This document shows, piece after piece, positions 8,918 through 20,655 of a stretch of 64,000 bases of DNA. The first letter of the stretch is position 1. Each line of letters begins with the position of its first letter. Location: contig CACVBU010000824.1 in the NCBI GenBank assembly GCA_902728285.1, forward strand, positions 389,307-453,306, in the 5' to 3' direction. The position numbers and the translations under genes were made by a program. This DNA is from Clytia hemisphaerica. Lineage: Eukaryota > Cnidaria > Hydrozoa > Leptothecata > Clytiidae. The notes beneath the pieces were generated by a model, which saw nothing but the letters and a program-made list of their open reading frames with translations, did not search any database and had not been told where the DNA came from.

Positions 8918-9140
8918 CATAGATTTATAAAGGCCGAAGGGCTAGATGTAAAGCTTTTGCTAAAAAGTGTACTGTGGTTAGGTAGGAAATCCTACCTAAT
9001 TTACGTGACATTACTATATAGAATTTCAGCGATAGACCAATCAGAAGCTTGAAGCTCGAAAACAAAAGCAACAATATTTTTTTCCGATATTTGCGGAACG
9101 TGCGTTTGAGCGCGCGCAGCGCGCTCAAACGCGCGTTCCG
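8918..9140 (+). repeat. repeat with an inverted relative at 19880-19917
   Basis: The segment beginning CATAGATTTATAAAGGCCGA is matched in inverse orientation at 19884-19918 (TCGGGCTTTATAGATCTATG). Both are followed inwards by a TTGCGGAACG block. They are two opposite copies of one repeat family flanking the Helitron region. A perfect small hairpin, AGGTAGGAAATCCTACCT, lies near 8982-9000. Confidence 0.45.
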
Positions 9141-9141
9141 C
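9093..9141. repeat. GC-rich 23-bp hairpin
   Basis: The arm GCGGAACGTGCGTTTGAGCG... (9093-9115) pairs with 9119-9141 around a 3-base loop GCA. The only non-Watson-Crick pair is one G-T. This is an isolated GC-rich palindrome in AT-rich DNA, part of the repeat that starts at 8918. Confidence 0.8.
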
Positions 9142-9543
9142 ATCCTTTGGCAAGATCTGCGTACGCGGGACGTAAATTTGTATATGTTCAAGAAATGCTA
9201 CCGATTTGGTTCACGAAAAAAACCCGAGCAAAGTAGACTTTTCATTATCTTATAAAATAAAAGTTATATCGAGTTTGACTATCCAATCAAGTGCGACTTT
9301 TTGTGATGTAAATTGTTTCATTTTTTCCCGCCGGTCCAAATTAGCGAGATTATGTTAGATCCAACCCTCCAGTTTGTAATTTCACAAACAAATCACAATT
9401 TTGAATGTTGAAAAGTATTTCAAGAAGAAAAGTGTATGCAGAAGTGTAAAAAAGTGTATGCAGAAGTGTAATCATTTGAACATTACAAGATTTAGATAAG
9501 TATTATTATTTTCGTCTCAAAGATATATACATATAATTTTGAA

Positions 9544-10530
9544 ATGTTTATCCCCAGCCTTAATGTTGATAATATTAGAAACTTAATTGGGAGTACCAGA
9601 AGAACTCTTGTTGGGAATTTTAGAAAACTTCCAAGAACAGTCTGGCCCAGGTATAGTTGTGTTCCCCAGATTTTAAGAACTGCCCGTAGCCATGGCTTAA
9701 ATGTTTTTTGTGTGAGTGAAACCCCCGGAGATGGTAATTGCTTTTATCACGCCATTGTAGAACAACTTAACGATCGTACAGATTTTGGTGATGTTTCAGC
9801 CTTAAGGTTACAGTATCCAAACCATCTTATCTTACGCCAGGCAGTCGTCAATTTTGTGCGCGATCAAAGTCGTCTAACTGTAGAGGAGTCTCCATACATT
9901 GTTGGATATAGAACTTTCTTTGAACAGGGGGCAATTGATATTCGCAGGGCTGAAGGATTTTCTTGGGAGCAGTTTTTAACCCAGCAGTTGTGTGATACTG
10001 TGTACACCACAGAGGTCTTTATCAATGCTGCAGCTATCTTGCTTGGTAGAAATATATGCATCAATTCTGAAAGCTGCAGCGTAAATAATCCCCTAAAAGT
10101 TACAAGTTGTTTCCGGGATTCTCCTCACTTAGAATTTCATGTAGAAATGCCGGTCAGCTCTTACTTTCTTTTGGCCGGAATTAACAATAATCATTTCCAA
10201 TCATTGTTACCTGGTGATGGGGGGATTTTAGCCAATTTTAACCAGCAAGAAACTGTTGACTTCTCGATTGAAAATGTAGAGATAATAAGAAAACGAGAGT
10301 CTCAAGGTGAGAAAGATCAAGCAGCTCCTCCCAGCAAAAAAAATAAAATACGAAAACCTCCTTTACAAAAGGTGTCTGTTGACCCTGAAATAGAAATACA
10401 GGCAAAGTGTACCCTTTATGGTTTGAAATATATTGAGCCTTCTGCTGAAGAGTCTGTTTCAGACAAGCGGAAAAGAAGAAGATCTCTTAGAAGTAAGATA
10501 ACAAGTGCAAAGAAAAAAAGAGCAATGTAG
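9544..10530 (+). pseudogene. Helitron OTU-like cysteine protease domain
   Basis: A 328-residue frame. The OTU catalytic block GDGNCFYHAI is at residues 62-71 (Cys66), and the histidine region INNNHFQSLLP puts the catalytic His at 217. Both ends of the fold are therefore present. The C-terminal third is basic and ends with a repeat unit (YIEPSAEESVSDKRKRRR). An OTU domain in front of Rep is known from animal Helitrons. The frame stops at 10530, but the same repeat continues in another frame (10533-10640: IAYIAPSNNETV), which shows a frameshift rather than a true end. The original start is not certain; the first ATG is used here. Confidence 0.8.
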
Positions 10531-11072
10531 AAGAAGAACTTAAATTATTATGTGCTCGTGATGGTATCGCATACATTGCACCTTCTAATAATGAAACTGT
10601 TCGCGAACAAAAAAGAAATCGTAGAAATAGAATGAATCGTGTTATGAGAGAAAAATCTATTCATAATGCTGAAGAAAGGTCTGATAGTAACAACAGTTGT
10701 TTACATTCAAATCCTAGGGTTGTTGAAGCAGCAGAATCTGTTCATAATGCTGAAGAAAGACCTCTCAGTAATAACAGTTGTTTACATTCTAATCCTAGGG
10801 TAGTTGAAGCAGCGAGCATTTTTGAGGAAGGGGAGTTAAAACACAACATCGATCGATGTAAAATTTGTAATGAAGTTAGACCTGTTTTTCATGAAACTGT
10901 TCATGTTGAGCCTGAATTGAACAACAATGATTTGTTTTCCCCAGCTTCATGGTCGGTAGGGGAGGATGGTAAGTGCATTAGATGTCGCCAAGAAGAAAAA
11001 AATAATCGTAAAAGAAAAAAATCCACCTGCCGCCCCCAAATTTTCTGGTATTTTTTCCATGTACGGGAATGA
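10531..11072 (+). pseudogene. Helitron linker with internal duplication and zinc-binding-like cysteines
   Basis: Continuation of the Helitron protein after a frameshift. It contains a 28-residue direct duplication (HNAEERSDSNNSCLHSNPRV, then HNAEERPLSNNSCLHSNPRV), DNA repeat period 84 bp at about 10657-10820. This is followed by CKICNEVRP and GKCIRCRQE, two C-x2-C pairs likely to bind zinc. The frame then shifts near 10970-11040 and continues in the next feature. Confidence 0.7.
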
Positions 11073-11991
11073 TGATAGTAGTAGTCATGGAGATGGGACA
11101 TTACATAATAATATGCATTTTGAAGAAATTCCCCCATACCTGAAAAATCTGAGTATTCTGGAAACAGCCATGATTTCAAAAATCAACATAATAACTAATA
11201 TTACCATCCTTAAATACGGCATGCTGAAAGGACGCGGCCATTCTATTGCAGTTCCACATGACATGAAAATTGCAAAGACTTTGCCAAGCCTCCCCCAAGA
11301 AGTAGGAATTATATTGGTTCGAAAGAAAGGCGAGAATGGGGAAGTTTTGAAAGACTTTATTGTCAAACGAGATAATGTTGAACAGGCTTTGAAAGGGCTC
11401 GTCTTTGGTTTTCCACATGGTGGAATGGGTACTGCCTTTCCTAGTTCTAAAGTTTATGATGGACCAGATCATATTAACACACCTCTAAAAGGCAGGTTTT
11501 TTCTATGGCTTCCCAACCCTTTTTATTTTGATGTTATAATTGACCATGTAAGATTAGAGAATTTGCCTAATGATGGCCGACAAATTTGTCCAGGTGTTCC
11601 AAATCTTGAATACAAAACAAAGGTTCCCAACTTGAATAAGAATTTATCTGAAGGTCAACCAGGATCCTCAGATTTGGAAAATACACATTCAGGTGTTGTC
11701 TCACCACTTGAACCTAATGATGTTGATAAGAATCTTGAGAAACTTTTACAGAAAATTGTAGATGATGAAGAGACTGTACAAGATCTTGTACGCCTTCAAA
11801 GAGTTGGGGTGGCCGAAATAACAAGTGAAAAACGTGAACTTGTGCCCGAAAGGAAAACATGTGGTTTTTTTGCAATGGCTTTTCCAACAATATTTATCAA
11901 TGGTTCAGCAGACATCACCATTCCTCAACTAACAACCCCTGATTATCAAGAGTGGTGGATCATATCTACCACTGCGGTGACAACCGTGTGA
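10966..11991 (+). pseudogene. Helitron N-terminal region
   Basis: The informative part begins near 11029 (FSGIFSMYGN). It includes IPPYLKNLSILETAMISKI, then LPQEVGIILVRKK, and ends in FFAMAFPTIFINGSADITIP. The last two match the region that precedes the Rep domain in Helitron polyproteins (the F-P-T-L-F-P/G-x-A-D block). The frame ends at 11991 and the protein continues in an overlapping frame from 11952. Confidence 0.7.
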
Positions 11992-13761
11992 GCTCCCATC
12001 CAACACTTCGATTTTTTCTTTTAAATCTTGGCCTAAGGGAAAGGGCTTTAAACCAAGGTTCATTTATTGTTGCACAACAACTTCATGACGCACATCTTTC
12101 TGTTGAAGAATTACGTGAAAATTTAGAGAATAATGATACTTCTGTACCAAGAAAATTGATAAGTGTTGGTGCTAAGTTTGCTAATAGTGATCCATATTTG
12201 CGAGACAGGAAAATTGAACTTGACAACCTTGCTTTGTTTAGAAAGATTGGATATGGGGACCTTCCAGCCTACTTTGACACAAACTCTATGGCTGAATACC
12301 ACTGGGATCCCCTTAAGCAATTGCTTGCCAAGTATGAATCTGTTGTTAAAGGGGTACCCGCGAGACCGTCCTTGAGTGCATTAATAATGATTTTTCATAC
12401 CATCGTAAATTAGTTTTGTCAAATCTCCATATTGTCACCAAGTACTTTGAGAGAAGGACCCTTAATTATTACAAAACTGTCGGGAAAGAACTTTTCAAAC
12501 ATCTGACATGTGGATTAGGTATGAGTTTGCAAAAGGTCGTGGTGAGATTCATAGTCACGCTATTGTTTTTAGTGAATCACACGCAAAGAAAAATAGAAAA
12601 TGCAATGGCTCTGATTACCGATGATGGAAAAGGTAATGTAAATACATCTGATGCAGCATTTGAACTTCATAGTTTACTTCCGACTGATTTACAAAATACA
12701 GAAGATTTTCACTCTCCTAATTTTGTATCTATGCACCCTGCAGGTGGCCATGAAGAAATTGACGAGAATGGCAAAAGGGTCTGGATCCCAACAAATCTGA
12801 ATGGCCCAAACCTGATGGAGATTATGAACCTCCAGATTATAATCCATTGTCAGAAAACTCTCTGACCACTCAAGCCAAGAATCCATGAGAGATTTTCATA
12901 TGCTTGACAAATAAGGTGGGCTTGCATAAGTGTAATAATACTTGCTTAAATGTGAAGTCTGATGGTGCTAAAACAAAATATTGTCGTTTCCATTTTGGTA
13001 AGTTTTGATATCGAAAATAGAACTTCAGAAGGAAAGAAACTCATCCTTTCCATTCACTAATAACACCAGGAGAACATCCACGTTTTGAAGGCAACAGAGA
13101 TCATTCTTTTCTGATATCTCATGTCAAAACACGCCTGTTAACATGGTTAGCCAACTCAGACACGCAAGCCATCATTGATCAAGACTTAATGGCTCTGTTA
13201 AGATACATCACTCAGTATGCCTGCAAGGGTGCCAAATCTACAGACGATTTCATTCGTCTATATAAACATTTATTAGATGTTAATAGTGATGTTGCATCTG
13301 TAAGAAGTATTGCCCAACAACTAATTTTGAAAATTATAGGATTGATTGATATGCCAGCAGCTGCTGTTGATTTTCTGAATTGTGGGGGTCGTTTGTTTCA
13401 TTGCACTCGACAGTTCAGGAGAATTGGTCTTAGTGGTTTTCGTGCAATAAATTCAAAGTTTTCCGATGGGGATGCAACAAAAGAAACACCTCTAGAAAAG
13501 TTTTTGAGTGAAAAACGTCGAATACGTTATCCCAATATGACTTTGTATAATTGGGCTCAAATTTGTGTTTGCACCCCTAAGTGTGCTAAAAACCATGTTC
13601 CTGTTTTTACTGGAATTCCAACTCTTCCCATATGGCCACTAGAAGAGGACTATTGTAAGGGTCAATTAATGATTCACTCGTTGGGAACATGGGAAAATGT
13701 AAATGACCTTAAGAACGGAAAAGACTCTTATTTAGAATCATTCATGGAGTTTAGAAAGTGA
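11952..13761 (+). pseudogene. Helitron Rep (HUH-type) endonuclease, broken
   Basis: Three frames together cover the Rep domain. 11952-12413 has HPTLRFFLLNLGLRERAL, typical of the Rep start. Around 12510-12600, in a frame different from the 12416-12865 one, there is IRYEFAKGRGEIHSHAIVF, whose HSH is the metal-binding H-x-H. 13189-13761 begins MALLRYITQYACKG, the Y-x3-Y catalytic tyrosine motif. The stops and frameshifts between them make this non-functional. Other short frames (12163-12375 and the minus-strand ones) are shadows. Confidence 0.75.
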
Positions 13762-13990
13762 CCTATGTCCTATGATTGTGAAAGAACTTGTCAAAAAAGC
13801 AAAATTAGAGCATGACAAAAAACTAGAAAGGGATCGTCAAAGAGCAAAAAGAGGAAAAACCTTGATGTTGATGATAGCTCTATTGACCACGAATCTGGAT
13901 CTGAAGATGAGTTTGAGAATGAAATCAGAAACGAACATGAATTTTTAAGATACTTGGCTGAAAATAGACCCCAAGATTTTGAAGATTTGA

Positions 13991-15792
13991 ATGCTTTTAG
14001 AGATCTGCCTGATGGTGGAGAAGGTTTTTGATTGGCATCAGTATGCAATTGAATCTTTTGGAGGTGCTTGGCCTGATAATGCTTCAGATTGGCTAGAAAA
14101 CATCTCAAAGGTGGCAGCTGCACAGCAACAGGCTCGAAATCAGAATTGTGATTTGCCACCAAATATTGATTTATTGAAGGCTAATGCTCTTCAAAGAGTA
14201 ATAATAGCTATTAACATTCTTAATATTATGTCTGTTGTGAATAATGAACACCAAAATAAAGTGCGTCTCTTAGTGCAGGGGACGGCTGGAAGTGGTAAAA
14301 CATTTACAATTGTTGCCTTGACCTATTTGTCGCGAAGAATTTGCAATCGAAACAATGCTGTAATGAATTTAGCACCTACTGGAGCAGCATCTATTCTCCT
14401 ACCCTTAGGACGAACTGTTCACTCAACAACAAACATCCCAAGAGTGAAGAGAAAAGAATCCAAAACATTGCAGTTAACTGATAAGCCATTGAATAGCATA
14501 TCTCTCACTGCCTTACGTGAACTAACTGGTAGCACTCTGGAAGGTAATTCTATGAAATTGATGACCTTGAATTTAGATGAAAGAGGTATGTATAGTCATC
14601 GTATGTTAGCATGGTGTAGCCAACGTTTTAAGGAGGCAACATGTGATTTTTTTTCAACAACTTTGGTGCAATACCAACTGTCAATTTTTTTGGATAGATT
14701 TAGGGCAGCTAGGTCCAGTTGATTCTCATGATTTGCATGTTGAGCCATTATCCTCAGACGCCCCAGATAAGCTTGCCGGTTATGGAATCTATCGTACATT
14801 TTCACATTGTATTCTGTTAAATGAAACTATGCGACAAGGCCCAGATCAGTTGTCTTTTTTGGAAATGTTGCTGAGAATCAGAGAGGGCAAACTCAATTTG
14901 AATGACTGGAAGACAATAAAATTCAAGATATGAAGGTGAGCTTCCTGAAAGTGCCAAAGAGGGATTTAGATCAGACACATGTTTGACCGTTATGGAAACG
15001 TGGCAAGAGGTAAATGTTGAGAACCACAACAAACTAGCTGATTTGGGGATCCCTGTTGCTACTATACCAAGCAAAGGAAAAGGACGTCATCACACTCAAT
15101 CTGTTAATCAGATGGGTCAAATTCCTGCAACCTCTCACATTGCTGTTGGAAGTCGTGTGCTTTTGACTAAAAATCAGCTCAGCTTAACACCTCTTGGATT
15201 GAATAATGGAGGAGCAATTGGGAAAGTGATTGCAATATTATATGCTGAGGGAGAAGCACCTCCATCATTTCCCAGAAGCAGTTGTTTTGTAGATTTTCCA
15301 AGATACAAAGGCCCAAGCTGGCTTCCAGAACACCCAACATGGGTTCCTATACCTGTCAATGAAGCACGTTGTGATACTAACTGTTGCTCTAGAAGGGGGT
15401 TTCCCTTGATGCCTGGTTATTGTATACCTATATCAAAAAGCCAAGGTATGACAATAGGTCCTAATGAGCCATGTACTCATATTCGGATAAAGTTAAATAA
15501 AGAGATTTTTATGGAGAAACTTAACCTTGGCATAACTTATACAGCCCTCAGTAGGGCATCTAAGCTAGAAAATGTTGCTTTGGTTGAAAAAGTGCCATAT
15601 GATAGGCTAAATTATATCAATAACCATCCATGGATGCCACGAAGAAGGGAAGAAGAAGAAAGATTGAAAATTTTGAGTGGCGAGACTCTTCAAACATATG
15701 GCCATTACAGCGATTTGAATACCTACAGAGAACTATTATGTGAATTTGATCGCTTTGTCAATGATGGTCTAACATGTTTTGAAGACCCTTGA
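13991..15792 (+). pseudogene. Helitron Pif1-like helicase, broken
   Basis: Motifs appear in the correct order. Walker A is GTAGSGKT near 14280. Motif II is degenerate (LNLDERGMYSHRML, about 14565). Motif III is GQLGPVDSH (about 14700, another frame). Then come LNETMRQGPDQL (about 14818), the C-terminal CIPISKSQGMTIG (about 15420) and TYTALSRAS (about 15540), the SF1 motifs V and VI. Three frames are needed to cover it, and motif II (usually DE.SM) has become DERGM. It unwound DNA during rolling-circle transposition in the ancestral element. Confidence 0.8.
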
Positions 15793-16270
15793 ATCACATT
15801 GCCTCAACATCGTTTCAGGGCATCGTAATGCTTTTTTTATATGCAATTGTTAAATTTTCTGCTTAGCATAGAAAGGCGTTTTCAATTACATGTTTTATAA
15901 ATAAGACTGATAAAACCTTAAAAAGTTAAGACAACAATTATAACTTAATTTATTCTACATTAAAACAGAGATGTAAGACCTTTTAACAATGCATGACATT
16001 TTCAAATGTTACTGTTATGAATGGAACAGAAGCTCAAAGATAGAATTCTGAGTATTTCAATCAAGGAACTATTAAAACAATTAAACATGGGAAAATGAAG
16101 GCTCTAAATCAACTCAAACAAACGTTAATTCGGCAGTATTTTGAAGGCTATGAATCATCTAAGCTTGAAATGTTTTTTGAATAATAAACATCTAAGCTCA
16201 ATTTTTCTTCTTTTGAAAAGGAACTGTTAAAACATGTAATTGAATTTGTCTCACTATCATTAGTTTAAAT
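15793..16270. other. AT-rich spacer between Helitron and hairpin array
   Basis: No gene. It contains weak direct repeats: AAGGAACTATTAAAACAATT near 16062 and AAGGAACTGTTAAAACATGT near 16219, each preceded by similar AT-rich text. It could be the Helitron 3' non-coding region. Confidence 0.4.
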
Positions 16271-16549
16271 CAAGGCTGTTCTGTCTGTCAAGCTGCAAAT
16301 GACTTTAAGTTGATGATTGATGGATGTTGATAGTTGTTTCCATCAATAGTGGATGTTGAAAGTTGTTTCCACCCTCTGGTGACATGTTGATAGTTGTCTG
16401 TCACATACAGAGTTTTTACCTATGAATGTTGATAGTTGTTTTCATAGTGGTGTGGTCTTATCCATGCCACCCTGGAACATGCTGATAGTTGTTTGTTTCA
16501 GGGGGTACATCAACTTTTGTCTAAAGTCAAAAGCAGCTGAACAGCCTTG
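16271..16549 (+). ncRNA. candidate structured RNA (or DNA cruciform array): five constant-loop hairpins inside one long stem
   Basis: An outer stem pairs 16271-16280 with 16540-16549 (10 of 10), 16291-16295 with 16534-16538, 16301-16307 with 16522-16528 (7 of 7) and 16307-16315 with 508-516 of the same block, i.e. 16508-16516 (9 of 9). Inside, five hairpins share the loop TGTTGATAGTTGTT or a one- or two-base variant. H1 is 16317-16346 (8-bp stem TTGATGGA). H2 is 16349-16372 (5 bp, GTGGA). H3 is 16379-16404 (6 bp, GTGACA). H4 is 16420-16447 (7 bp, CTATGAA). H5 is 16470-16503 (10 bp, CCCTGGAACA, one G-U). A sixth arm with a different loop fits at 16447-16470 (9 bp, two G-U) but shares end bases with H4 and H5. 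Stem sequences are unrelated while pairing is kept; loops are kept. No known RNA family is recognised. Strand is assigned from the downstream gene and is not proven. Confidence 0.75.
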
Positions 16550-16604
16550 TACCCTAAAGAAATTGTTTTATTTTTGTAATTAGTATTTTTAGGATGGGGT
16601 ACAA
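16547..16604 (+). repeat. hairpin directly after the array
   Basis: TTGTACCC (16547-16554) pairs with GGGTACAA (16597-16604), 8 of 8, extended by AAA/TTT after a bulge. The 3' arm could instead pair with TGTACCC near 16636-16642, so two alternative hairpins are possible. Confidence 0.6.
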
Positions 16605-16696
16605 AATCCTATGGCTTACCTTCACGTGGTGTACCCTGTTCCACATTTTCAAAGCAGTAAAAGTGTAATTTGAAAATGTCAACTAAAAAGCCAAGG

Positions 16697-16792
16697 CTAT
16701 CCAAAAGGTGATAAGATCTTTGAAATTTTTACTCAAACAACAGTGGTAGCTAAATTTAAACGGTCATTATAATTTTATCTCCTTTTGGATAG
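16697..16792 (+). repeat. 12-bp plus 5-bp hairpin upstream of the lysine-rich frame
   Basis: CTATCCAAAAGG (16697-16708) pairs perfectly with CCTTTTGGATAG (16781-16792). After a T-T mismatch GATAA pairs with TTATC. The loop is about 60 nt. A possible splice donor AAAAG|GTGATAAG (16707) and a strong acceptor TTTTCTTTCTTAG (to about 16841) would remove most of it as a short 5' intron; this is inference. Confidence 0.6.
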
Positions 16793-16868
16793 ATCAGCTG
16801 CTATCATACTTGATGGTAACATAGAGACTTTTCTTTCTTAGTGTAAAATCTTAAAAAAAACACACAAT

Positions 16869-17360
16869 ATGAGCTTGCAGGATGAGTTAATGGAGGTGGA
16901 ATCCAACGATTCGTTTTCTGATGAACTTGCAGCCGAGGAGCAAAGAGAGAAAAGATTTGCTTCAAAGACCGAGCTCAAACAATCCAAAAAAACTAAAAAG
17001 CAGGAAACTAATGATAAAAGTAACGATGAAAAGAAAAAAGATCAAAATGATAATAATAATAAAAAGAAATTTAATGCTTACAAACAATACAAAAAAATGA
17101 GAAGGGCAAATGGGGGGCCTAGATCTTTTTCCTCATTTAAATTTTGGACGGCCAATGGGTGTAAAGATGAGCCAGGTTTCTTAGATTCTTGGCTCAAAAA
17201 CGACAAAAGTAAAGAGAACAACAACAACAAAGAAAGAAACAATAGAGGTCAAAAAGGCAGTAGTAGTCAGAAGAGAGTCGGTGACTTTACAAAAAGTTTT
17301 CAATGTAAACCTGTATGGAGAGAACTCTGTAGGTGTTCAGCTATAGCTATGATAACATGA
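16869..17360 (+). CDS. lysine-rich, low-complexity protein of unknown function (possibly first coding exon)
   Basis: A 163-residue frame, starting MSLQDELMEVESNDSFSDEL. The N-terminus is acidic; the middle is very rich in Lys, Asn, Gln and Asp, including runs of Lys and Asn (KKTKKQETNDK, NDNNNKKK). It has a more ordinary segment, KFNAYKQYKKMRRANG then FKFWTANGCKDEPGFLDSW, and an Asn/Ser-rich end. I recognise no domain; charge suggests a nuclear or nucleic-acid-associated protein. A strong acceptor (TTTTCTTTCTTAG) lies 28 bp before the ATG, which favours a spliced transcript. Donor-like GT sites inside the last 80 bp (TTTCAAT|GTAAAC, CTCTGTAG|GTGTTC) would lead to later exons, but the phases do not directly match the exon at 18607. 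It could alternatively be a gene of the neighbouring element. Confidence 0.45.
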   Translation: MSLQDELMEVESNDSFSDELAAEEQREKRFASKTELKQSKKTKKQETNDKSNDEKKKDQNDNNNKKKFNAYKQYKKMRRANGGPRSFSSFKFWTANGCKDEPGFLDSWLKNDKSKENNNNKERNNRGQKGSSSQKRVGDFTKSFQCKPVWRELCRCSAIAMIT

Positions 17361-18606
17361 AAATGTCATCATGGCACGTAGCAATAATTGGGTCTCAAAA
17401 ACATACAACAGTTTGAATCTCACTGTTGAAAAGAATTTATTACTAAAATTTATAATACAGTTTTCTCTCCATACTGGAAAACTTTGAGTTTAGATAACGT
17501 TGAACGTGTTGAATAGTGTACATATTGTTTATATAATGGAGTTTTAATAGTATATAACTTTTAGTTGCGTATAGTTGTGTATAGTTTAGCTCTATATGAT
17601 GAATTTCCGTTATTAATTAACTCTTGAAACTTGTTCAGAGCATCCCTAACGGGGAAGGGAGGCTAAACTAAACCCCTTTAAATATCTATGGGGAATTGAA
17701 TTTTCAAAATTTTAAGGGCTGATTCTACAAACATGTCCCCAAATTATCATGCACGTCTGGGGAAACATTAAGATTTGAAAAAGATATTCAATAATTTAGA
17801 AAAATCATATTTAAAAAAAAAAGTGGCACTGGTACTAGTTGAGTTGGGTTCACCTACCAAATTTTGGGGATACATCGCATCTTCCGATTCACAAGGAGTG
17901 TAAACCTTTCTAGATACAATGTAAATTAATCCATTTACTTTCTCCAGTGTTGAATTTAAAGCATTTTTTATTTATTTAAATATCAAATTGTTATCATTAT
18001 TATCAAATTATAAACTAATTTTGATTTAAATCATGAACAAAAAAAAGGAATATTTATGTATTTTTTCCAGTGTTGAATTTTAAGCATTTAATGCATTTTT
18101 TAATTTATCTAAATATCAAATTTTATCATAATCAAACATAAAAAAATTTCAGCATTGTTTTTCCTTCTCCCTTTTTTAATAAACATTGGTATGAATATTA
18201 TATGATTTGGAATATAATCTGGAACTTTTCTAGTCACATTATTTAAGTGAATACAATTGTATTGTTACTTTCATTTCATTTCAGCATTAATAACAAGAAT
18301 AACAAATAACGAATAACACATCAATCAAATACTGTACATTCAGGAAATAGAAATCAGCATTTCTAACTGCAAGATCATGCAATAATTTCAAACAGTAAGC
18401 ATAGAAATTTCACTTTATCGTCTGACGAAAGAACAATATAGTCCAATATACGTCATTTTCACAATGACAGGTTTTTCACTTTACCAAGGTAAACAAGCTT
18501 ATTAAAGAGTAAAAAAGTTACCAAGAGCAACCTTTGTACTTTAGTGAACTTTTTGTAACCATATTGCTTATTTTCCCTTTCTTATAATAACTTTTACCTA
18601 TTTCAG
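17361..18606. other. AT-rich stretch without clear gene
   Basis: No domain or long frame. 17940-18130 contains an imperfect direct duplication: tccagtgttgaatttaaagc at 17944 and tccagtgttgaattttaagc at 18067, both followed by attttttatttatttaaatatcaaatt-like text, period about 123 bp. A strong acceptor-like TTTCATTTCATTTCAG ends near 18283 but no open exon follows. Confidence 0.5.
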
Positions 18607-18840
18607 ATTGGTTTGGTTGAATATTGTCTGAAAGATTATCCAAGAGTACCCATGTATCGAATTATCAAGAAATCGAACATAAATTTTACAATGGTTTCGA
18701 TATCTCCATATACAGTACTAGTAAGTCTATCTACGTTCCTTTATATAGCTAAGCACACTCACTATTATTTAAGTCTTTGTCTTTTCTTTTTTTAGATAAT
18801 TTTTGTACATTCTCTTATCCAAGATAAGTGCAATAATTAA
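18607..18840 (+). CDS. two small terminal exons of an unidentified gene
   Basis: Exon 18607-18720 (114 nt, phase 0-0) follows TTTTACCTATTTCAG, reads IGLVEYCLKDYPRV and ends at GTACTA|GTAAGT. The next exon starts at 18796 after CTTTTCTTTTTTTAG, reads IIFVHSLIQDKCNN and stops at 18840. Both splice boundaries are strong and the phase is maintained over the 75-bp intron. AATAAA-type signals follow near 19074 and 19206. The upstream part may be the lysine-rich frame at 16869 through an exon I have not found. No domain is recognised; spurious splice-like sequence in AT-rich DNA remains possible. Confidence 0.4.
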
Positions 18841-19607
18841 CCCTGGGGCATAATAGAATCATGACCTTGTAAAAGTTCTCTGAAATGTGTTTGTACATCA
18901 AAACTTTCAATATTACTTTAAATTTATATCTGATTCAATAACAATGAATTAATAACATTTCAGGTTTTGTTGTTTCAACGGATGGCTTGAGATAGAAAGA
19001 TTGGTGTTTTAATGGTCAAATTGTTCCCTTTTCTTGAATCTATGACTTGGATCATTTAATACGCAACATCTCAAATAAACGATTGGAAGCTATTGTCTAC
19101 AATTTAATTCAATTATTGTGAACAAATCATTTTTTGAGATTATTAACTACACAGTAAATTTATCATGTAATTGTAAAGTTTATTGTGCAGTATAAAGATT
19201 ATCTTTTACTTTTCTATTAATAAAATTTAACTTCGTTGTTCTTCACTTATTATCGAATCCAAGTAAAAAGGCATTTTATTAGACCAAATGATATATTCGA
19301 ATGCCTATTGTGGCGAATAGAGGCAAGGTAAATTAAAATTAATTTCCATTATTAGGAATTTTTCCAAATCACACCTTATTTCAATAAAATGCATATTATC
19401 GGGTACCTAATAGACAGGGGGGTGGAATAAGAATGTCCTGGGTGGAAAATTTTCGAAAAATTAATTAGCGGGGACGCTTATACCCTAGAGTAGTAAACAG
19501 AAAAGGGAAGATTTCTCATTTAATTGTCAATTTAAATCAAATTAAATACATCGAAATACCTTTCTCACAATTTAGAAATAAAAGTACCAAAATTCTTTAT
19601 CTGTTAT

Positions 19608-19672
19608 TCCGATGGCGTATTGGCGGCCGCCCACGCTGTAGCTCTAAAGGGGCGGGCCAATATCCCATCGGA
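19608..19672. repeat. GC-rich imperfect hairpin
   Basis: TCCGATGG..TATTGGC.GCC (from 19608) is complementary to GGGCGGGCCAATAT...ATCGGA (to 19672). It belongs to a repeat running to about 19918 that is related, in inverse orientation, to the repeat at 8918. Confidence 0.55.
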
Positions 19673-20367
19673 GAGGGATGGTAGTCGTCCTTTGATGTGC
19701 TGCCTCACCAGTCGGTCTCAACTGCTCTGCTTGTGGTAGCCTAAAAAAATTGGCAGTTGAACCCGACAAGCACGGAAAATCGGTTCTCAGAATTCTCTTT
19801 CTTCGCTTTGCGAAAACAGAACGCTCGTTCCGCAACCCCTTTTATGTTGATCACTTTTTTTTGCCTGTAATGGCTTAAAGCCCGACATCTAGCTCTTCGG
19901 GCTTTATAGATCTATGGTTAAACTGAGTCAAATTCGTCAAAGAATCAAGATAAAATAGTTATGTTGAAAAAGCATATTGTTCGATCATGCGTGTTTTCTT
20001 AACGAGAAGTCATGTAATAAGATTTAAGAGCCCCCCCCCAAGTGGTAAGTCTGATCACGATAATTTTCTGTCTTAAATCGCGATCACCTAAATCAGAAAA
20101 CAATTTGGATAATCACAAAAGCCCGAATCACGCATCACGGCTCAAAAATCTTTCAAATCACGATCGCGTTTTGACCTCTAGTCTAATCACGCAATCACGA
20201 AAAAAATTCCAAATCACGTATAATAACGCTAGAAAAAATTCCCTATCACGTCATCACAAAAACTTCTTGGGGGCCTCATTTAAAACCAATATGATTCAAT
20301 CCTTTCGAGCGGATAACTCATTAAAAGAATCTATCATTAGTAAACGAGTACACGTTTTTTGTATAAG

Positions 20368-20655
20368 CCGTATGGCTACGTCAATTGTTAAGTGATATTG
20401 GTTTTAAACAAACAAAACCAACAACGTTATATGAGGATAACCAAGGTGCTATCGGACTTAGCGAGAATCCGAAACTTAATTCCAGAACGAAGCATATTGA
20501 CATAAAGTATCACTATGTCAGACAAGCTGTTGATGAGAAAGTTGTTCAAGTGAAGTATTGTCCAACTAACGACATGGTTGCTGACATTTTCACGAAAAGT
20601 TTGTCGAAAGTAAAATTTGAACAGTTGCGAACATTACTTGGAGTACAAAAGTAGA
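20368..20655 (+). pseudogene. copia-type retrotransposon fragment: end of RNase H
   Basis: The frame reads VWLRQLLSDIGF, then TTLYEDNQGAIGLSENP, SRTKHIDIKYHYVR and DMVADIFTKSLSK up to a stop at 20654. This is the C-terminal RNase H of Ty1/copia Pol, including the DNQGAI, KHID and ADIFTK blocks. Everything upstream (gag, protease, integrase, most of the reverse transcriptase) is missing, so this is a 5'-truncated copy. It is followed by a polypurine tract and an LTR. Confidence 0.85.

Follow-up and report, generated by a model that had tools for sequence, protein, structure and literature searches.

What kind of molecule presents one loop several times on stems that share no sequence? In a 64,000-nucleotide stretch of Clytia hemisphaerica DNA, analysed whole and called the window below, a sequence-only reading had singled out five such hairpins packed inside a long-range closing stem, and had proposed a folded RNA or cruciform DNA of a design for which it knew no family. 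Here we consider how the array has varied, in what element it lies, and what it may do there.

One loop on changing stems

All five loops lie where they had been placed, with the same four variants of the shared 14-nt loop TGnTGAnAGTTGTT (table 1), and the stems of hairpins 1–5 do differ completely from one another. The closing stem is also present, with its 3′ limit at 16549, yet its segments fold as about 11, 6, 8, and 8 pairs rather than the 10, 5, 7, and 9 first given. Between its arms the five hairpins span 16316–16503. The predicted energy of 16250–16620 is -122.2 kcal/mol (z -6.2), which none of 100 shuffled sequences equals; since the minus strand folds about equally well relative to shuffles (z -6.9, 0 of 100 as good), energy alone cannot pick the strand. 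An argument on strand from G·U versus A·C variants proved weak and was set aside. All eight arrays tested fold better, on the plus strand, than their shuffle mean (z -2.1 to -7.8). Folding and homologous arrays thus support a folded molecule in which one loop is displayed several times; nothing in Rfam matches within the array. Two points had to be corrected: the array is no single item, being repetitive in the genome, and its surroundings do not end with it, another conserved folded block continuing at 16551–16696.

Table 1. Features of the array and its host element in the window copy.
Feature	Position	Strand	Evidence or remark
Helentron-type Helitron bearing the array, 10.76 kb	9092–19851	+	shared 3′ end, 5′ pile-up, empty site
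ORF1 region: OTU, DUF6570, Rep, PIF1 helicase	9544–15792	+	split into several frames in window copy
Hairpin array with long-range closing stem	16271–16549	+	fold; families A–E, family F
Hairpin 1, 9 bp, loop 16325–16338	16316–16347	+	
Hairpin 2, 5 bp, loop 16354–16367	16349–16372	+	
Hairpin 3, 6 bp, loop 16385–16398	16379–16404	+	
Hairpin 4, 7 bp, loop 16427–16440	16420–16447	+	A-U to G-C exchange in families D/E
Sixth (extra) hairpin, other loop, between hairpins 4 and 5	16448–16469	+	absent from D/E
Hairpin 5, 10 bp, loop 16480–16493	16470–16503	+	three pairs changed on both sides
P0 hairpin, 3′ strand ending at predicted cleavage site	16551–16595	+	one mismatch in window copy
Predicted HDV-like self-cleaving ribozyme	16596–16696	+	Rfam match, descriptor, covariation
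P1	16596–16602/16631–16637	+	
P2	16608–16617/16688–16696	+	one bulge
P3	16618–16620/16628–16630	+	
L3	16621–16627	+	
P1.1	16624–16625/16638–16639	+	
P4	16643–16653/16669–16679	+	
Candidate catalytic C	16683	+	
ORF2, small charged protein, conserved 45–50-aa domain	16869–17360	+	end frame-shifted relative to sister copies

Across the 417-Mb genome searched, at least 52 whole or partial array places were found, forming six families (A–F); among them are the homologous arrays that the first interpretation called for, in which the loop is the same and the stems have changed. A 279-nt array query gave at least 43 matching pieces (40 scored of 54 candidates), with similarity to the window array of 98–100% in A, the window's own family, 88–90% in B, 84–92% in C and, over part of the array, 74–92% in D and E. 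Four of the 43, on contig C499, belong to the more distant family F, for which 15 array places are known, C499 among them; here eight hairpins, whose loop is shorter by one base and whose stems are mostly longer, form units of about 120 nt repeated in tandem. Throughout these families the stems and closing stem vary with pairing largely kept, and the loop persists. In 40 distinct hairpins from 32 loci, 274 of 298 stem cells are Watson–Crick, 8 are G·T, 3 A·C, and 13 other, and 7 of the 14 loop positions are invariant. RNAalifold predicts 52 pairs from 19 rows, 7 of them changed on both sides (five in hairpins 1, 4, and 5, two in a small helix that we do not trust). The closing stem of D and E (TTAGAGACAGGT with ACC-A-TGTTTCTAA) pairs in the same place as that of A–C with unlike letters; within F it differs between F1 and F3 (ACTGCATT/AATGCAGT; GCATC/GATGC), and pairs are exchanged in its hairpins too (GAAACA/TGTTTC with GTAACA/TGTTAC). 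Among A–C alone, 95.9% of cells are paired, versus 39–45% when the rows are slid; double-changed cells (6/500) and the covariation score (5/500) exceed shuffles, and the number of pairs with double changes does not (2 pairs; 135/500).

Could the array be functionless tandem-repeat or palindromic transposon debris? Several other Helentron families carry repeats behind the helicase, and the F unit is itself tandemly repeated; yet unrelated stems, exchanges that preserve pairing, and the same neighbours in six families make this very improbable. A detector built to find a single loop on differing stems recovers the D and F arrays and finds none in 32 other loci, four of which have tandem units with one stem. 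Nor does an array stand behind other Helentron helicases at 20 loci (15 at 38–57% identity, five at 87–88%), where three related loci have one chance loop match each, with 4 mismatches. Viral collections gave no match and bacterial collections eight, none with such stems by eye; the loop complement has short matches only elsewhere in the element.

A similar known design is that of the iron-responsive elements of the transferrin receptor, five hairpins with a shared loop and different stems in non-coding mRNA, which repeat a protein site; the Clytia array likewise sets one loop on five different stems. An iron-responsive element, however, has a 6-nt CAGUGN loop and a bulged C, whereas the Clytia loop is 14 nt long and lies in a mobile element. 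The loop composition of the 40 distinct hairpins is not that of an iron-responsive element, Rfam returns no match to that family, and no homology between the two is known.

The host Helitron and its second gene

The array sits inside a Helentron-type Helitron whose copies stop together at 19851 and pile up at a 5′ end of about 9087–9092; at an empty site on contig C97 the flanks join as ..CCGATATT to CAC... Because the target is TT, the ends are uncertain by 1 nt. The terminal inverted repeat TTGCGGAACG.. stands at the 5′ end, and on the other side it stops about 17 nt short of the 3′ end; the ends and the one empty site give offset inverted repeats, TT insertion, and no clear target duplication. 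A near-perfect palindrome (9092–9142; 24-nt arms, 3-nt spacer) occupies the 5′ end. OTU, DUF6570, and PIF1 are found by Pfam in the window ORFs; in the sister copy at C472, ORF1 is one open frame of 2126 aa, where Rep HUH and tyrosine motifs can be read by eye (EIHSHAIVF, with HSH; YITQYACK, Y-x3-Y). PF14214, precomputed for 12 of 21 related proteins, has no match in the 1711 aa of C472 ORF1 scanned. Rep/helicase with OTU, offset inverted repeats, palindromic 5′ end, and TT target all recall Helentrons or Helitron2, for which offset terminal inverted repeats and a TT target are described in the part of PMC4067079 available to us. An array, a ribozyme fold, and an ORF2 are absent from that part of the description. 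The C-terminal AP endonuclease of Helentrons in the strict sense does not appear among the Pfam matches of ten window ORFs and of the first 1711 of C472's 2126 aa, a stretch that stops 415 aa before the C terminus. The family F element is a canonical Helitron with upstream Rep fragments (EFQKRGLPHAH by eye) and PIF1, and the helicases of family E are 49% identical in protein sequence to that of the window.

Some observations concern such elements more generally. Three 5′ end pieces follow one another about 5.5 kb apart on C793 (467933, 473435, 478924), each 100% identical to the query, as expected of tandem rolling-circle products. In other Helentron families (L093, L094, L095, L084) the helicase is followed by 129-nt or 160-nt tandem units or by repeated ATCG-CAATAAGA-CGAT hairpins, and a GGAGTTGGGCAT-like stretch is common to L093, L094, and L084 by eye. 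L080 and L081 (helicase 87–88% identical) have small tandem GCATC-TTGTT-GATGC hairpins in place of the array (fold z -3.3 and -3.9) and a weak ORF2 match. One related Rep/helicase (P0007) comes from a source named like a transcript model (TCONS), which suggests that elements of this kind may be transcribed. Outside the element, a fragment at 20385–20654 reads by eye like the end of a copia-type polyprotein.

In those copies that were inspected in detail, the array stands between the Rep/helicase gene and ORF2. A relative of ORF2 also lies downstream of the family F array; its domain finds 47 genome places at E < 1e-3, ORF2 of families A–E included, and the D domain recovers F ORF2 at 1e-5. Beyond the Clytia genome no ORF2 was found, the three protein matches all being from Clytia. 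At 39 of the 47 ORF2 places the same strand carries an array no more than 3 kb upstream, and ORF2 lies within 3 kb downstream on the same strand of 39 of the 52 arrays listed, partial arrays included. These counts leave out C839:40416 and C207:460841, together with the four C499 rows of the 279-nt search (C499 being counted once, as F), as well as, from the F search, cross-matches to A–C, C504:2424806, and C456:543640. Of the 13 remaining arrays, those on C430, C3, and C566 have a weaker ORF2 match, and with the D domain query C430, C695, C74, and C414 match. One of the eight ORF2 places with no array within 3 kb, on C792, has an array 7 kb away. The prediction of unseen arrays at array-less ORF2 places failed a blind test: none of 12 such places (7 at E < 1e-3, 5 weaker) shows an array in 2.2 kb or the exact loop core, and four have a single chance match to the core with one mismatch. 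Among them are two with a ribozyme core, L118 and L124, and one, L121, with half a core.

The array does not simply follow ORF1 in descent. Families A and D share 98.0% of ORF1 over 5062 columns and 98% of the last 54 nt, but only 74.7% of the array over 324 and 80% of the ribozyme block over 130; behind ORF1, nothing else of their non-coding sequence aligned beyond these blocks and the two ends. Conversely, D and E agree at 89.2% over 464 positions of the array region versus 66.7% over 219 of helicase DNA. The array travels in company with ORF2 from one Helitron to another.

Helitrons move through single strands, and the array might work as single-stranded DNA in rolling-circle transposition, for instance as a second-strand start, or as a place on the displaced strand where Rep or the ORF2 protein lands. 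The last bases of the window element, ATGTTGAT, recur in the loop, and the minus strand folds equally well. Yet family E has the same loop and a different 3′ end (..ACGGCTTGTA), which rules out the identity of loop and transposon 3′ end noticed in A and D, and the 8-mer occurs four further times in the C472 copy. Moreover, two shorter copies that retain both ends of the window element (C41:402322–404681 and C69:95760–100124) apparently lack the array, neither contig having an exact loop or an array among the matches listed; the array is therefore probably not needed in cis for transposition. The adjoining ribozyme fold also speaks for RNA, and we consider a single-stranded DNA role quite unlikely. 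A hairpin near the 3′ end of Helitron DNA is described for Helraiser in the part of PMC4778049 available to us; the Clytia array differs from it in lying 3.3 kb inside the element.

A predicted HDV-like ribozyme behind the array

The folded block behind the array comprises a hairpin (P0) and, starting 46 nt after the array, a predicted HDV-like ribozyme fold. The P0 pairing ACCCTAA(AA)/(TT)TTAGGGT is the best partner found by our script in 9 of 31 distinct rows, another partner being preferred in the others; P0 of D and E was paired by eye. Two Rfam models of the HDV class match from the same first base, 16596, both below their gathering scores: drz-agam-1, weakly, over 16596–16696 (18.4 vs. 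37) and HDV-F-prausnitzii (16.2 vs. 44). Nine loci of B–F, four with a complete core (L042, L051, L055, L137), gave no HDV match at E up to 5, a search so much larger that by our scaling the window's own score would also fail in it. A descriptor, written after the drz-agam-1 match had been seen, finds a single place when run over both window strands and no place in eight shuffled strands; of 60 other loci it matches only two related bacterial ones, and it misses the F-type cores of L112, L137, and L124 because it demands three P3 pairs.

Over 12 distinct rows 94.8% of the cells of the fold are paired, versus 91.2% in shuffles and 29–56% when slid, and 6 of the 21 scored pairs are changed on both sides, a number reached by none of 500 shuffles; further pair types are no more numerous than in shuffles (477/500). 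P2 was kept outside the pair count because the alignment is shifted there. The nested double pseudoknot described for HDV-like ribozymes (PMC4908430, as far as available to us) can be drawn completely in the window and in family C, with all helices, P1 7/7, and G·U at the site, and two P1 pairs of C are changed on both sides. L028 has one P1 mismatch; in D, E, and F a U·U replaces the outer P3 pair, leaving two pairs plus U·U; family B has lost the catalytic 3′ half and with it the HDV topology. Of 31 distinct cores, 17 have CTAA or CTGA before a P2 strand, as expected of the catalytic C; among the remaining 14, eight end with their sequence stretch (L114, L130–L136), two are of family B, and the rest are broken or unjudged. 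The J4/2 pattern of HDV-like ribozymes is C-N-R-A, which the drz-agam-1 alignment supports. By reading of the list, 38 of the 40 core copies scored (75 candidates) adjoin an array, those on C850 and C456 being the exceptions. Directly behind the fold stands an inverted repeat (16697–16717/16772–16792), with a similar one in other letters in family D (L051, near 2100–2150). Rfam miRNA matches at 16690–16799 fall below gathering and rest on plain inverted repeat; we rejected that identity.

HDV-like ribozymes of mobile elements are known from retrotransposons. The Clytia fold resembles those of drz-Agam, R2, and L1Tc in the predicted order of P1, P1.1, P2, P3, and P4, the seven-base L3, C-U-R-A before the P2 strand, a site 5′ of the first P1 base, and its place in a mobile element. 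It differs in lying between two genes of a DNA transposon rather than at a retrotransposon 5′ end, in being preceded by a hairpin array, and in its Rfam score below gathering. Judged by title and start of abstract, none of the literature matches listed deals with a Helitron ribozyme. Although the parts are of known kinds, the combination of array, ribozyme fold, and ORF2 in a Helitron is new to us.

A proposed intercistronic RNA of a two-gene transposon

Within the element ORF1 is followed by the array, the P0 hairpin, the predicted cut, the ribozyme fold, a polypyrimidine-AG site, and ORF2, an order that suggests an RNA cut between genes. In A, B, and C this polypyrimidine-AG stands immediately ahead of the ATG of ORF2; in D it is less clear. 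We infer RNA rather than DNA from the ribozyme fold and the short array-less copies; of the original alternatives the folded multi-loop molecule stands, and those same copies make cruciform DNA less likely.

One may ask whether the array governs ORF2 only: as an outron, intron, or 5′ leader it would be bound by the ORF2 protein, for autoregulation or to control splicing, and the ribozyme would be of secondary importance or inactive. Array and ORF2 occur together across two Helitron clades, and the polypyrimidine-AG site would suit such a role; but pairing in the ribozyme core is preserved from family to family and the core adjoins the arrays, and this explanation seems to us rather unlikely.

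We give an even chance to the array being a cis-acting intercistronic RNA of a two-gene Helitron, in which the predicted ribozyme cut would leave an array-tailed, protein-bound ORF1 mRNA. ORF1 and ORF2 would be transcribed together, and the ribozyme would cut their RNA between 16595 and 16596. Upstream of the cut there would remain an ORF1 mRNA with an unpolyadenylated 3′ end formed by array and P0 hairpin, a tail that may protect it; the repeated loop would bind a protein, of the host or encoded by ORF2, that takes over the functions of poly(A) or regulates expression. Naming this ligand is guesswork, the ORF2 protein being the obvious candidate because ORF2 travels with the array. Spliced-leader trans-splicing at the polypyrimidine-AG site could rescue the uncapped downstream product for ORF2; in the part of PMC3273482 available to us, trans-splicing is described for the ancestor that Clytia and Hydra had in common. 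A fuller version, possible if doubtful, would make array, 3′ end hairpin, HDV-like ribozyme, and ORF2 a transferable cassette that moved between two Helitron clades and forms a ribozyme-split operon, with a poly(A)-free ORF1 mRNA and a loop-binding protein, possibly ORF2.

If the intercistronic reading is true, array and ribozyme between genes would be an RNA-level way for DNA transposons to separate and stabilise their messages, and ORF2, with its uncharacterised domain, would be named as a partner. The array-ribozyme module points to a novel mode of gene expression in such elements, and the hypothesis is directly testable in Clytia, a laboratory jellyfish.
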